From positions 682,001 through 746,000 of the forward strand of contig JACPEA010000011.1 in the NCBI GenBank assembly GCA_016183765.1: a DNA stretch of 64,000 nt, in the 5' to 3' direction. Of this stretch, positions 4,177 through 49,151 are shown piece after piece. This DNA is from Bacteroidota bacterium (GTDB lineage Bacteria > Bacteroidota > Bacteroidia > Chitinophagales > Chitinophagaceae). A program made the position numbers and the translations under genes. How positions within the stretch are numbered: the first letter of the stretch is position 1; the number at the start of each line of letters is the position of its first letter. A model generated the notes under the pieces. It ran no database searches. It was not told the DNA's origin and saw only the letters and a list, made by a program, of their open reading frames with translations.

Positions 4177-5154
4177 ATGAGACTGTTTTGCAGCAATACA
4201 TTTTTTTATTCCCCTTTCGGTAACGAGGGTGGTGAGATCATAACGGTACATGCACCGGCAACGGTTGCCAATATGGTCTGCGGTTTTGATGTGCTCGGTT
4301 TTGCGGTGAATGAACCGTACGATGAGATGCATATCCGCTTTTCCGATAAACCCGGTGTATCCATCGTCAACCTGGATGCATATGACCTGCCCACCCAACC
4401 CGAATTGAATGTGGCCGGAGCAGCTTTGCTGGCCATGCTGGAAGAAATACCGGAACCGACCGGTTTCGAGCTGGCTATCTGTAAACATATCAAACCCGGC
4501 AGTGGTGTGGGTTCCAGCGCAGCAAGTTCTGCGGGCGCTGTGGTTGCCGCCAATCGTTTACTGAACGATCGTTTCAGCAAACAGGACCTGGTTCGTTTTG
4601 CGATGAATGGAGAGAAAGTGGCATCGGGCGTCAAACACGCCGATAATATTGCACCCTGCATTTACGGGGGCGTAACACTGATCCGATCCATCTTTCCGCT
4701 GGATATTGTCCCACTCAGCGTGCCGGAATTATATGTGACCATTGTACATCCCCAGATAGAAGTAAGAACGGCAGATGCGCGCGGTATCTTAAAACAGCAG
4801 GTACTGCTGAAAGACGCGATTCGCCAGTGGGGTAATATTGCTGGCCTGGTAGCAGGCTTGTTGCAAAAAGATTATGATCTCATTGGACGTTCCCTGGAAG
4901 ATGTGTTGATCGAACCGGTCAGAAGTATCCTGATCCCTGGTTTTGACAATATTAAAAAGAACAGTCGCGAAGCCGGCGCACTGGGAGGCGGCATCTCAGG
5001 CAGCGGTCCTTCCATTTTCATGCTGAGCAAAGACGAAGCTACCGCCAAAGAGGTGCAGGCACAAATGCATGCTGTGTACGAGAAGCTATCACTCGATCAC
5101 CATACCTATGTCACTACGATCAATTGCACCGGTGTACGTTTCATTGATCAGTAA
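4177..5154 (+). CDS. thrB: Homoserine kinase
   Basis: GHMP-family kinase phosphorylating homoserine to O-phosphohomoserine. The sequence shows the N-terminal APATVANMVCGFDVLG segment, the ATP loop PGSGVGSSAASSAG and the C-terminal glycine-rich motif GGGISGSGPS. The conserved core only begins about 22 residues after the ATG at 4177. A TTG at 4144 would add 11 more residues, so the ATG is preferred; no in-frame ATG lies closer to the core. It sits 58 bp after thrA and 29 bp before thrC. Confidence 0.93.
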   Translation: MRLFCSNTFFYSPFGNEGGEIITVHAPATVANMVCGFDVLGFAVNEPYDEMHIRFSDKPGVSIVNLDAYDLPTQPELNVAGAALLAMLEEIPEPTGFELAICKHIKPGSGVGSSAASSAGAVVAANRLLNDRFSKQDLVRFAMNGEKVASGVKHADNIAPCIYGGVTLIRSIFPLDIVPLSVPELYVTIVHPQIEVRTADARGILKQQVLLKDAIRQWGNIAGLVAGLLQKDYDLIGRSLEDVLIEPVRSILIPGFDNIKKNSREAGALGGGISGSGPSIFMLSKDEATAKEVQAQMHAVYEKLSLDHHTYVTTINCTGVRFIDQ

Positions 5155-5183
5155 TATTCACCCTTCACCATTGTCCATTTACT

Positions 5184-6482
5184 ATGCATTACTACAGTCT
5201 CAATAAACAAGCGCCCAATGTCAGTTTCCGTGAAGCCACCATCCAGGGACAGGCTCCGGATAAAGGATTGTATTTCCCCGAAACCATTCCAACGGTAGAC
5301 CCGCTGATCATCAAAAATTGTAACGATTATACCCGGGAAGAACTGGCCATGCTGGTGATGCAACCTTATGTGGGCGATACCATTGATGAGAAAAGCCTGT
5401 TCCGTATCGTTTCTGAAACCATCGGGTTCGATTTTCCGCTGGTGAAAGTGAATGAACAGATCTCTTCGCTGGAACTGTTTCATGGACCTACCCTGGCTTT
5501 CAAGGATGTAGGGGCACGTTTCATGAGCCGCTGCCTGGGTTATTTTTCGCAACAGGCAACAGGCAAGGTTACTGTACTGGTAGCCACTTCGGGTGATACC
5601 GGCGGCGCCGTGGCCAATGGTTTTTTGGGTGTGGAAGGTGTGGAAGTGGTGATCCTCTATCCTTCGGGTAAAGTGAGTCCCGTGCAGGAATTACAGTTGA
5701 CCACCTGCGGACAAAATATCAAAGCGCTGGAAGTATCAGGTAGTTTTGATGATTGCCAGGCCATGGTGAAAGATGCATTCATGGATACTGATCTGAATAA
5801 GGCATTACAGCTTACATCCGCCAATTCCATCAATGTGGCGCGTTGGCTGCCGCAACAGTTATATTATTTCTTTGCCTACCAGCAATGGCAGGATAAGGAA
5901 CAAGCCCCTGTGATCGCTGTACCGAGCGGTAATTTTGGCAATATCTGTGCAGGTTTGCTGGCACATATCAGTGGTTTGCCGGTAAAACATTTTATAGCTG
6001 CCTGCAATGTGAACGATGCAGTGCCCGAGTACCTGCGTACCGGTAATTATGCAGCTAAAACAGCCGTACCCACTATCTCCAATGCCATGGATGTGGGCAG
6101 TCCCAGTAATTTCATCCGCATCATGGAACTGTTTGGCAATAAATATGAAACGATCCGGGAAAAGATCTCCGGTTATACGGTTACCGATGAGACCACCCGT
6201 CAGACCATTGCCGATGTGTACCACCAGTATGGGTACATCCTTGATCCGCACGGCGCCGTTGCATACCATGCTTTGCAGGAATACCTGTCCGGGCATCCCC
6301 GGGAGGCAGGATTCATTCTGGAGACCGCACACCCGGTCAAGTTCCCTGATACGGTAGAAGCTATGATCGGGAAAAAGATCGAAGTGCCGGCATCAGCGCA
6401 GCACCTGTTCGGGTTAGAGAAGAAGAGTATCTCCATGAAAGCCTCTTTTGCTGATTTGAAGGAATGGTTGCTGAACGGATAG
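5184..6482 (+). CDS. thrC: Threonine synthase
   Basis: PLP enzyme of 432 aa converting O-phosphohomoserine to threonine and phosphate, the last step of the pathway. The PLP lysine is in GPTLAFKDVG (K107) and the phosphate-binding loop is SGDTGGAVANG. Length and the full-length N-terminal domain fit the class typical of enterobacteria and Bacteroidota. It closes the thrABC run. A gap of about 100 bp containing a repeat follows. Confidence 0.95.
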   Translation: MHYYSLNKQAPNVSFREATIQGQAPDKGLYFPETIPTVDPLIIKNCNDYTREELAMLVMQPYVGDTIDEKSLFRIVSETIGFDFPLVKVNEQISSLELFHGPTLAFKDVGARFMSRCLGYFSQQATGKVTVLVATSGDTGGAVANGFLGVEGVEVVILYPSGKVSPVQELQLTTCGQNIKALEVSGSFDDCQAMVKDAFMDTDLNKALQLTSANSINVARWLPQQLYYFFAYQQWQDKEQAPVIAVPSGNFGNICAGLLAHISGLPVKHFIAACNVNDAVPEYLRTGNYAAKTAVPTISNAMDVGSPSNFIRIMELFGNKYETIREKISGYTVTDETTRQTIADVYHQYGYILDPHGAVAYHALQEYLSGHPREAGFILETAHPVKFPDTVEAMIGKKIEVPASAQHLFGLEKKSISMKASFADLKEWLLNG

Positions 6483-29670: not shown

Positions 29671-29925
29671 ATGTGTTTAGCCATACCCGGAAAGATCATC
29701 GCCATCACCGAAGAACTGGATACCACTTTCCGTAAAGGAAAAGTCTCATTCGGCGGCATACTCAAAGAGATCAATCTCTTCATGGTCCCCGAAGCCCAAA
29801 TCGGAGATTATGTACTGGTCCACGTAGGCGTGGCCATCAACCTGGTAGACGAAGAAGAGGCCCAAAAAACCTTCAGCTATCTGAAGCAGATGGGGGAGGT
29901 GGAGGAGATAGGGGGCAATGAGTGA
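29671..29925 (+). CDS. hypC: Hydrogenase assembly chaperone HypC
   Basis: 84 aa with the signature MCLAIPGKI, whose Cys2 carries the Fe(CN)2CO unit with HypD. The stop codon TGA at 29923-29925 lies within the first units of the ATGAGTGA satellite (29917-29965), so the last two residues (Asn-Glu) are repeat-encoded. The next hyp gene, hypD, is displaced by about 560 bp by an inserted cassette. Confidence 0.94.
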   Translation: MCLAIPGKIIAITEELDTTFRKGKVSFGGILKEINLFMVPEAQIGDYVLVHVGVAINLVDEEEAQKTFSYLKQMGEVEEIGGNE

Positions 29926-29965
29926 ATGAGTGAATGAGTGGATGAGTGGATGAGTGAGTGAATGG
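29917..29965 (+). repeat. Octamer satellite (ATGAGTGA)n, left flank of cassette
   Basis: About six imperfect copies of the 8-mer ATGAGTGA/ATGAGTGG begin inside the hypC 3' end. The reverse complement of the same array lies at 30445-30482 just before hypD. A third, direct array is at 49003-49050. Confidence 0.85.
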
Positions 29966-30019
29966 GTAGAATAGTGTTAATTGGAGGGACAAATTGTTGG
30001 TGGTGAAGTGAGGTTATAG

Positions 30020-30056
30020 ATGGTTTGTTTTATAAGATTGATAAAAGACAAACCAT
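30020..30056 (+). promoter_or_regulatory. Inverted repeat covering the start codon of the four-helix-bundle gene
   Basis: ATGGTTTGT (30020-30028) and ACAAACCAT (30048-30056) are perfect 9-base complements, extendable to 12 pairs with one wobble. The right arm includes the first two bases of the ATG at 30055. In RNA this would hide the start codon; in DNA it would be a palindromic operator. Confidence 0.55.
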
Positions 30057-30429
30057 GGACGAGAAAGCTCTTTTTATTGAAGCGTTCCGGAAGCGCACCA
30101 AACAGGTGGCCATCGGGTGTATCCGGCTGGTGCAGGTAATGCCCAGAACTGAGGAAGCAAAGGTGCTGACCAGGCAGTTAGTGCGGAGTGCCAGTTCCTG
30201 CGCGGCCAACTACCGATCGGCATGCAGGGCCAGATCACAGGCTGAGTTTTACGCTAAAATGAGCATCGCCATTGAAGAAGCAGATGAAACACTATTCTGG
30301 CTGGAACTGACCGAAGAGGCGGCGATCTGTAATGACACAGAACTCAAAACAATACAACAAGAAATAACAGTCATCATCAAAGTATTATCAAAAGCCAGAA
30401 AAATCACATCAAATAACCAGAATAAATAA
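30055..30429 (+). CDS. Four-helix-bundle protein (23S rRNA IVP / Avd-like)
   Basis: 124 aa from the ATG at 30055. The composition is all-helical, with the family signature regions FRKRTKQVAIGCIRLVQ, QLVRSASSCAANYRSACRA and EADETLFWLELTEEA. These are characteristic of the four-helix-bundle (S23/IVP) family found in 23S rRNA intervening sequences and as the Avd accessory of diversity-generating retroelements. No reverse transcriptase or rRNA is nearby. It splits hypC from hypD and is bracketed by inverted octamer satellites, suggesting arrival as a small mobile or repeat-associated cassette. The biochemical role is unknown; nucleic-acid binding is plausible. Confidence 0.85.
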   Translation: MDEKALFIEAFRKRTKQVAIGCIRLVQVMPRTEEAKVLTRQLVRSASSCAANYRSACRARSQAEFYAKMSIAIEEADETLFWLELTEEAAICNDTELKTIQQEITVIIKVLSKARKITSNNQNK

Positions 30430-30444
30430 TCAGCACCCAATAAA

Positions 30445-30482
30445 TCATTCACTCATTCACTCACCCACTCATCCACTCATTA
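30445..30482 (-). repeat. Octamer satellite, right flank of cassette, inverted
   Basis: About four and a half copies of TCACTCAT/CCACTCAT, the reverse complement of the 29917-29965 array, end one base before the hypD ATG at 30484. Together the two arrays bound a unit of about 566 bp. Confidence 0.85.
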
Positions 30483-30483
30483 T

Positions 30484-31599
30484 ATGAAATACCTCTCCGA
30501 ATACCGCGACCCCGAACTGGTACATGAATATGTGCAGGAACTGCATCGCATCACTACCAAACCCTGGACATTGATGGAGATCTGTGGCGGGCAAACGCAT
30601 AGCCTGGTGAAGAACGGCATACTGGATATGTTGCCGGAACAGATCACGATGGTGCATGGACCGGGTTGTCCGGTTTGTGTGACCAGTGTCAGTGTGATCG
30701 ATGAAGCCATTTACCTGGCCGGTCAACCGAATGTGATCCTTTGTTCATTTGGCGATATGTTGCGGGTGCCGGGCAGCCGGAAGAGTTTGCTGGAGGCCAA
30801 GGCCGAAGGTGCCGATGTACGCATTTTGTATTCGCCGCTGGAAGCGGTGGAACTGGCCAAAAAGAATCCCGATAAGGAAGTGGTGTTCTTTGCGGTGGGT
30901 TTTGAAACTACGGCGCCGGCCAATGCACTGAGTGTGGTGCATGCCGATAACCAGGGTATCAACAATTACAGCATACTGGCATCGCATGTACTGGTGCCAC
31001 CGGCCATGGAAGCCATACTGAGCGATGAGGAGAACCAGATCGATTCTTTCCTGGCGGCAGGACATGTGTGCACCATTATGGGCATGGAAGAATATTATCC
31101 GGTAGCAGAGAAATACCAGATACCCATTGTGGTAACAGGTTTTGAACCGGTTGACCTGTTACAGGGCATCCTGATGGCCGTAAGACAACTGGAGAAGGGC
31201 GAATACAAAGTAGAGAACCAGTATGCCCGCAGCGTGCAGCGCGAAGGCAACCGCATGGCACAGGATACCATACAGAAAGTATTTGAAGTGAGCGACCGCA
31301 CCTGGCGCGGCATCGGCTCCATACCGCAGAGTGGATATGAAGTGAATGAACGTTATCGCCAGTACAATTCGCGGGTCAAGTTCGCAATCGATATACCGTT
31401 GGCCGAGGAGAACAAAGAGTGTATCAGTGGCGATATCATGAAAGGTTTGAAGAAACCCCGTCAATGCCCGAACTTCGGTACCAAGTGTAAACCCGAGCAT
31501 CCATTGGGTGCACCCATGGTCAGCAGTGAGGGGGCTTGCGCGGCGTATTATCAATATAGTTTATCCGGAACAGGTGTCACAGAAGTAGTCTCATCCTAA
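30484..31599 (+). CDS. hypD: Hydrogenase Fe(CN)2CO assembly protein HypD
   Basis: 371 aa with the redox and iron-binding motifs [18 protein letters not shown] and the C-terminal cluster region [17 protein letters not shown]...[10 protein letters not shown] that ligates a [4Fe-4S] centre. It forms the HypC-HypD scaffold on which cyanide and CO ligands are attached. The gene is intact despite the satellite array ending one base before its start, so its translation signal is now satellite DNA. Confidence 0.96.
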
Positions 31600-48310: not shown

Positions 48311-48979
48311 ATGCGCCAACCGTCCAAAGATCCCCGCCTGATCTCCTTTAAAACACTGGTACAATCCATAGGCTGGATAAGTGTTTTGTTGCCGGCAGCC
48401 ATGCTGGTGGGCAATTACCTGTTTGGCCACTGTTATGCCATACAGGATTCGGTAAGCGATTATTACTATACCATTACCGGTGGCCTGCTGGTGGGTATGT
48501 TATGTTCGGTGGCGCTGTTCCTAATCTCCTACAAAGGCAATTCCGGCGACCGGTTGGATGGGTTTCTGTCTACCTCGGCGGGTATACTGGCATTAGGGGT
48601 TGCTTTTTTCCCTACCAATGAAACCAGTGCCGACAGTTGCGCTATCATTCATCTGCCACTGAACGAGCTGCGTAATAACCTGCACAATGTGTTCTCTGCT
48701 GCCCTGTTCCTGGTGCTGGCAGCTATTTCCCTGTTCCTGTTCACCAAAAGCAGGGGTGTGGTCATCACCCGACAGAAAAAACAGCGTAACCGGGTGTACC
48801 GTAGTTGTGGGGTGTTAATGCTGGTATGTATTGTATTGCTGGCATTGTATACGAATGTGCGGGATACTATGCCCTGGTTAAAAGCCTTTAAGCCTGTTTT
48901 CTGGCTGGAGTCCGGCGCTTTATTGGCATTCGGGATTTCCTGGCTGGTGAAAGGCGGGTTGTTTTTGAAGGACAGATGA
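48311..48979 (+). CDS. DUF998-like integral membrane protein
   Basis: 222 aa with about six hydrophobic segments. The pattern of an early SDYYYTITGGLLVGMLC after the first helix, then ALGVAFFPTNE, is seen in DUF998-type proteins. Function is unknown. The start at ATG 48311 is uncertain; upstream in-frame codons exist to 48212. The stop codon (48977-48979) touches the start of a tandem-repeat array. Confidence 0.65.
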   Translation: MRQPSKDPRLISFKTLVQSIGWISVLLPAAMLVGNYLFGHCYAIQDSVSDYYYTITGGLLVGMLCSVALFLISYKGNSGDRLDGFLSTSAGILALGVAFFPTNETSADSCAIIHLPLNELRNNLHNVFSAALFLVLAAISLFLFTKSRGVVITRQKKQRNRVYRSCGVLMLVCIVLLALYTNVRDTMPWLKAFKPVFWLESGALLAFGISWLVKGGLFLKDR

Positions 48980-49050
48980 CAAGTGACAAGTGACAAGTGA
49001 CAATGAGTGAATGAGTGAATGAGTGAATGAGTGAATGAGTGGATGAGTGA
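48978..49050 (+). repeat. GACAAGT 7-mer array followed by ATGAGTGA octamer satellite
   Basis: Three and a half copies of GACAAGT (48978-49004) pass into six copies of ATGAGTGA/ATGAGTGG (49003-49050). This is the same octamer that flanks the four-helix-bundle cassette at 29917 and 30445, here without a neighbouring gene of that type. It lies directly after the stop codon of the gene ending at 48979. Confidence 0.85.
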
Positions 49051-49151
49051 ATGGGGGGGTGTTTTATTGGGGGTACTCTCATTTTAGACAGGCCCTGTTT
49101 ACAAGTACAGAAAATTTCATATTTCTATTCTTTATGTTTTTGAGCACTGTT

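Follow-up and report, generated by a model that had tools for sequence, protein, structure and literature searches.

A four-helix-bundle protein gene boxed by inverted octamer arrays in a hyp operon: a candidate intergenic intervening-sequence element

Introduction

Why should a gene for a four-helix-bundle protein lie between hypC and hypD, with a tandem octamer array on one side and the inverted octamer on the other? The locus is part of a stretch of 64,000 nucleotides of a Bacteroidota genome (hereafter the window), in which Pfam gives the gene order hypA, hypB, hypF, hypC, IVP, hypD, hypE. The inserted gene belongs to the IVP/S23 family, members of which are encoded in the intervening sequences (IVSs) of 23S rRNA. 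In these IVSs, terminal complementary sequences form a stem that carries the S23 ORF in its loop, and the whole is removed by RNase III (PMC4990558). The function and origin of the S23 protein and of the rRNA IVS have been unclear for decades, as has their mobility, which is merely hypothesised (PMC4990558).

Tandem heptamer repeats in intergenic regions form a second body of observations that has no agreed origin, and include GGGAATC in Xanthomonas and GGGGA(C/T)T in Nostoc (PMC4692102), as well as TAACTGA (PMC4679880). Linking IVSs and heptamer repeats makes both testable, with each copy of the element naming its own candidate target sequence.

Organisation of the hyp insert

A first-pass annotation of this DNA described an IVP/Avd-like gene that separates hypC from hypD and is flanked by ATGAGTGA arrays in opposite orientations, the left one supplying the hypC stop codon. 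Both Pfam, which places the gene in PF05635, and the sequence bear this out (Table 1). Two details of that description need correction: the right array, which had been placed one base before the hypD ATG, ends at a distance of two bases from it, and the arms, described as exact reverse complements, pair best between 29925-29961 and 30445-30481 with 33 of 37 positions matched. The complementarity of the two flanks scores 54; across 1,052 genes of the same genome the median score is 18, and the 99th percentile lies at 35. The perfect 9-bp inverted repeat noted earlier at the IVP start codon is present (30020-30028/30048-30056) and lengthens to 12 bp if one G-U pair is allowed, and a similar hairpin is found at the IVP start in the two nearest orthologues.

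Table 1. Features of the hyp insert and of a second octamer array in the window
Feature	Position	Strand	Remarks
hypC	29671..29925	+	Pfam HupF_HypC, 1.8e-25; last codons and stop (29923-29925) lie within the left arm
Left arm, AATGAGTG octamer array	29916..29964	+	G-rich, nearly C-free; pairs with the right arm over 29925-29961
12-bp hairpin with one G-U pair	30020..30056	+	Bases 1 and 2 of the IVP start codon form part of it
IVP/S23-family four-helix-bundle protein, 124 aa	30055..30429	+	PF05635/TIGR02436
Right arm, inverted octamer array (CACTCATT...)	30443..30481	+	C-rich, G-free
hypD	30484..31599	+	Pfam HypD, 3e-154; ATG two bases past the right arm
Second AATGAGTG array, ORF-less	49001..49053	+	3' of a + strand gene

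RNA folding of the unit predicts an outer stem built from the two arms (MFE -174.8 kcal/mol, z -4.9), with 0 of 100 shuffles as stable, and this predicted stem runs from the last base of the hypC stop codon to two bases 5' of the hypD ATG. Rfam has no match within the window, and the unit sits between two protein-coding genes rather than inside a 23S rRNA helix, so that it is not filed here as a 23S IVS.

The protein itself matches PF05635 with an E-value of 4.9e-16 and 59.3 bits (cut-off 33.8), and TIGR02436 with 7e-23 and 80.9 bits (cut-off 24). AF2 models the monomer with confidence as a four-helix bundle (pLDDT 91), for which the best PDB matches are 2rld and 2gsc, the latter being XCC0516 of Xanthomonas campestris ATCC 33913, followed by the Avd structures 4dwl and 8ub7. 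The Foldseek match to 2rld, a structure that contains five chains, has an E-value of 9.8e-6 and a TM-score of 0.77-0.83. The dN/dS of the hyp IVP is 0.14-0.17 against two orthologues, and that of orthologous PF05635 proteins is 0.07-0.20 where measurable; judged by these ratios, the PF05635 proteins of such elements are under purifying selection.

Most PF05635 genes examined are boxed by inverted words

All 13 PF05635 copies found in the same genome are flanked by inverted tandem words, nearly all of them different (for instance, GGGTTAAAGAGGTTAAAA, ATTGGTAATTGGTAATTAGG, GGAACAGATGAACAGATG and AAGTATATGAAGTAAATAG), and their flank scores range from 26 to 110, where the 95th percentile of the background genes is 25. 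The sequence read covers 1.22 of the 3.67 Mb of the genome, a portion picked in part for AATGAGTG arrays, and copy counts are therefore not densities. In the copies inspected, the left arm begins at or near the preceding stop codon, the right arm ends just 5' of the next start codon, and the insert and both neighbouring genes run in the same direction.

The variety of words bears directly on the form in which mobility was originally proposed, that of a non-autonomous element with fixed inverted ATGAGTGA satellite termini. That proposal accounts for the inverted box and for the existence of empty sites, but neither ATGAGTGA nor AATGAGTG stands beside any of the 12 other copies of the genome, each of which carries another word instead. 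By itself this absence would have told against the cassette, but it reflects the variation of the word from copy to copy. Most family members have arms made of other words, and the word also differs among species at the hyp site, so that fixed termini are refuted in the form given and we regard this version as very improbable.

The arrangement extends well beyond a single genome. At 139 distinct loci across Bacteroidota, each upstream flank was set against the downstream flank of its own locus and against the downstream flanks of every other locus; the true partner ranked in the top 5% of the mismatched-locus controls at 104 loci, where about 7 are expected. These comprise 13/13 loci of the genome itself, 46/51 of the genus and 45/75 of the rest of the phylum, significant flank pairing being absent in 30 of the 75 phylum-level loci. 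Of 82 loci, 47 have a word period of 7 and 29 a period of 8 (76/82 together). The left arms of 49 well-paired loci hold 496 G and 124 C, with G in excess of C in 46 of them, and this composition leaves an arm able to pair with its partner yet with little scope for pairing within itself. In 72 of 89 loci, both flanking genes run in the direction of the insert (background, 51.5%), and RNA folding predicts half or more of the arm to be paired in 38 of 39 loci.

Beyond Bacteroidota, plasmid records of the cyanobacteria Calothrix brevissima, Nostoc edaphicum, Anabaena, Pseudanabaena and Geminocystis and of the gemmatimonadal Gemmatirosa also hold copies with strong inverted words; those of Picosynechococcus and other plasmid copies are weaker, and one Calothrix copy (L339) has none. 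One query of phages returned no PF05635 relative. On cyanobacterial plasmids, three copies (L338, L340 and L345) lie inside CRISPR operons, in the order cas6-IVP-cas4 in Anabaena and Pseudanabaena and cas10-IVP-cmr3 in Picosynechococcus, where the IVP gene is likely to be an insert rather than a cas gene.

In the case of Azospirillum lipoferum 4B, an IVP gene lies within a 23S rRNA gene (Rfam RF02541, 1786-4984 of L347), and its borders consist of TCAGAGGACGGATGACAGAGGACGGAGGACAG and the inverted counterpart, that is, of the same kind of word arms.

A separate feature was seen directly 5' of the IVP ATG at nine loci (L039, L142, L143, L227, L229, L232, L233, L235 and L238), where a hairpin of 10-16 bp is followed by a T-run in a terminator-like arrangement, and where a motif resembling GTAT(T/A)(T/A)ATAC often occurs some 56 nt upstream. 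Stems of at least 9 bp upstream of the start are found at 14% of IVP loci, as compared to 4% of other genes.

The hypC-hypD junction in relatives

The first-pass annotation had looked to relatives with hypC directly beside hypD for the empty site, and such relatives are the rule. The survey covered 80 HypD loci, 78 of them also with hypC; 73 of these 78 junctions have hypC next to hypD with a gap of 0-257 nt, and five contain an IVP gene, the protein identities being 84, 77, 62, 54 and 54%. All five relatives have inverted arrays on both sides of the gene, which makes six such hyp copies with the one described here. The octamer, however, depends on the species, and while the two nearest have AATGAGTG, L046 and L064 have AATGATAG and L091 has GATTGAAG. 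Left and right arms of the same copy score 43-64 against one another, whereas pairs of different octamers score 12-46; in most cases a left arm fits a right arm with its own type of word far better than one with another type, and so the two arms changed together. In the closest relative (L044), the 5' end of hypD is partly duplicated over 4999-5200, and an extra right array is present (5146-5183).

Concerted change of this kind is also compatible with a non-mobile origin, in which the arms are hairpins of the host that serve as operon insulators or in mRNA stability or attenuation, arose by replication slippage and gene conversion between the arms, and enclose an IVP gene that is simply resident. 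The many copies at orthologous sites speak for such an origin, as do the copies with a perfect hairpin and T-run directly 5' of the ATG and the location of ORF-less arrays at gene boundaries. Against it stand the coexistence of filled and empty orthologous sites, the boxing of PF05635 genes as a class when other genes stay at background score, and the same box in 23S rRNA.

Do the protein and the word move together?

A further point against resident host hairpins is that related proteins at different sites have related words. In a comparison of 1,786 locus pairs, the two members of each lying at different sites, the similarity of the proteins correlates with that of the words (Mantel r 0.28), whereas none of 1000 permutations exceeded 0.12 and arms that retain composition only gave r of 0.09-0.12. 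The TAATTAG family (L229, L233, L232, L142 and L151) is one example that spans more than one site. Slowly evolving host hairpins are the strongest objection to mobility, and it is this association of protein and word, together with the lodging in rRNA, that weighs against them; we consider them an unlikely, though not negligible, explanation.

The bounded cassette of the original proposal is thus upheld in the sense that the arms stay associated with the gene across different sites. Of the mobile element as then conceived, the cassette and the empty orthologous sites stand, and the ATGAGTGA termini do not, as the termini are not fixed and each copy has a word of its own.

Three junctions that are filled with an IVP gene in relatives lack one in the genome under study. 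At some conserved sites (L035/L222 and L041/L240), the flanks are about 86-90% identical and the IVP proteins 55-61%, which suggests replacement of the cargo at these sites. Where filled and empty orthologous sites were compared, the spacers were wholly different, with neither a target-site duplication nor a precise empty site readable, and no near-identical IVP copies were found at different sites. In related species many copies occupy the same site, so that any movement is slow. On these comparisons mobility is supported, not caught in the act.

One further box was seen at L275 (G000 C15:154540-154999), where inverted CACCGCAGAG surrounds a PF13366 gene (PDDEXK_3, GxxExxY-type) at a site that holds an IVP element in the relative G159, which hints that boxes of this kind may have a second cargo. 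PF13366 was not retained as a second general cargo, one of two copies in the genome being boxed, which is too few.

ORF-less arrays dispersed through the genome

The words are not confined to IVP genes. A 16-mer of AATGAGTG has 235 near-matches in its own genome, as compared to 0 for the reversed control, and exact 16-mers occur in 4 of 147 genus genomes, the same four that have the hyp IVP, although these four may be one clade and so count as little more than one event. Two independent tests of the prediction come from words that were taken from a hyp copy and then sought genome-wide: GGATTGAA, from the genome of L091, is found at 88 sites there, against 0-1 in each of 12 further genomes with hyp genes; GAATGATA, from that of L064, is found at 23 sites there, against 0-2 in 12 others. 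Within the 1.22 Mb, arms of other copies in the genome under study recur at 49, 31, 11, 9 and 8 sites, as compared to 0-2 for controls, and words scattered here that match no copy of this genome fit arms that box IVP genes of sister species (28, 13, 11 and 6 sites). In contrast, the arms of 31 distant IVP copies have a mean of 0.19 sites in this genome, similar to controls.

The ORF-less arrays are located at gene boundaries. Among pairs of adjacent arrays, 39 are convergent and 2 divergent, and such pairs are thus mostly hairpins of one polarity. With respect to the nearest gene, 42 arrays point outward and 26 do not, a weak bias that depends on crude gene calls.

Such dispersal could also be that of an independent element, a satellite that inserts at gene boundaries and has reached the flanks of IVP genes as a passenger insertion. 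This would fit the presence of AATGAGTG arrays at many other gene boundaries, as well as the word GAACAGAT, which abounds in G071 and also in G106, where the orthologous copy has other arms; words can evidently exist without matching a current copy. An independent satellite is difficult to reconcile with 13 copies that have different words, or with the occupation of both sides at all six hyp copies. In addition, several of the boxed words (for instance, those of L032 and L042) are not dispersed in the 1.22 Mb examined, from which it follows that the box precedes dispersal, and we regard a passenger satellite as improbable.

Two local observations may be added. The second AATGAGTG array of the window (Table 1) is abutted by a TGACAAG heptamer array, the two together occupying 48977-49053, and TGACAAG is not found among the words of the IVP copies of this genome. 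On contig C2 of G000, three intergenic regions of about 500 bp (L013, L016 and L018) contain nested, roughly symmetric arrays of several families with AATGAGTG outermost, and resemble a large compound hairpin.

A probable intervening-sequence-type element in mRNA

The stem-loop layout of the IVS, together with the word arms of the Azospirillum copy, leads us to interpret the hyp unit as an mRNA-borne element of the IVS type. In this interpretation an intergenic IVS element is looped out of the operon transcript and moves with its protein and arms as one unit. We assign a probability of about 0.7 to this reading. Here, the arms would pair in the operon transcript to give a double-stranded stem from which the gene is looped out, and this stem would keep the hypC stop and the hypD start within a few bases of one another, leaving the operon little disturbed. 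In this way the operon could tolerate an insert of 0.5 kb, much as 23S rRNA accommodates an IVS by way of an extended helix, and the stem may likewise be cut by RNase III, as in the rRNA IVSs.

The co-inheritance of protein and word suggests a putative recognition of the arms by the protein, which, as a pentamer, would bind its own stem or the matching DNA or cDNA. The proposal of the first-pass annotation, that the protein may bind its own hairpin or the satellite, is in keeping with this co-inheritance. We infer that the protein spreads the words, helping to copy the element with its word to new junctions, and the ORF-less hairpins would then be non-autonomous offspring. One option for copying would be an RNA intermediate and a reverse transcriptase acting in trans, a partnership that the Avd fold of the model suggests.

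A broader generalisation is offered tentatively, at somewhat less than even odds, namely that PF05635 proteins drive, in trans, a new class of bacterial mobile element. Each protein would spread its own heptamer or octamer word, both as the element and as ORF-less hairpins; the heptamer repeats of Bacteroidota, of cyanobacteria and perhaps of Xanthomonas would be traces of this activity, the 23S rRNA IVS one lodging of the same element, and Avd a relative whose partner is a reverse transcriptase.

The element is frequent among Bacteroidota and also occurs in cyanobacteria, and its protein is conserved. For annotation, genes for a 'four helix bundle protein' inside operons are likely to be inserts rather than members of the operon.

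Comparison with known systems

The open-access literature searched yielded no report of IVS-type elements in protein-coding operons or of PF05635 proteins linked to heptamer or octamer intergenic repeats. The published heptamers are similarly arranged in intergenic tandem arrays of 7-nt units, with many convergent inverted pairs in Xanthomonas and with TAACTGA beside start codons, and the two descriptions (PMC4692102, PMC4679880) do not mention S23 or four helix and propose no linked protein of the PF05635 family.

In REP/REPIN repeats with RAYT transposases (PMC3733652, PMC6006769), a gene likewise lies between inverted, lineage-specific repeats that are dispersed as ORF-less hairpins. The hyp unit differs from REP/RAYT in that its repeats are tandem heptamers or octamers and its protein is a PF05635 four-helix bundle, with no HUH transposase or nuclease. 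BrickBuilt of Porphyromonas gingivalis (PMC4596501) resembles it as an intergenic tandem repeat within an element with inverted-repeat ends in a Bacteroidota genome, but this minisatellite MITE has a 23-nt unit, and its abstract describes no ORF.

The protein shares its fold with Avd of the diversity-generating retroelements (PDB 4dwl, 8ub7), at a sequence identity of about 15%, and Avd has been described as homologous to PF05635 (PMC10053308). Unlike a diversity-generating retroelement, the unit has hyp genes as its immediate neighbours, with no reverse transcriptase or TR/VR beside it. The closest likeness in layout is to the 23S rRNA IVSs of Coxiella and Leptospira (PMC4990558), which also place a PF05635 ORF in the loop of a stem made of terminal complements. 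Compared with these, the hyp unit lies between protein-coding genes of an operon, its words vary from copy to copy, ORF-less copies of it are dispersed through the genome, and its protein is under purifying selection.
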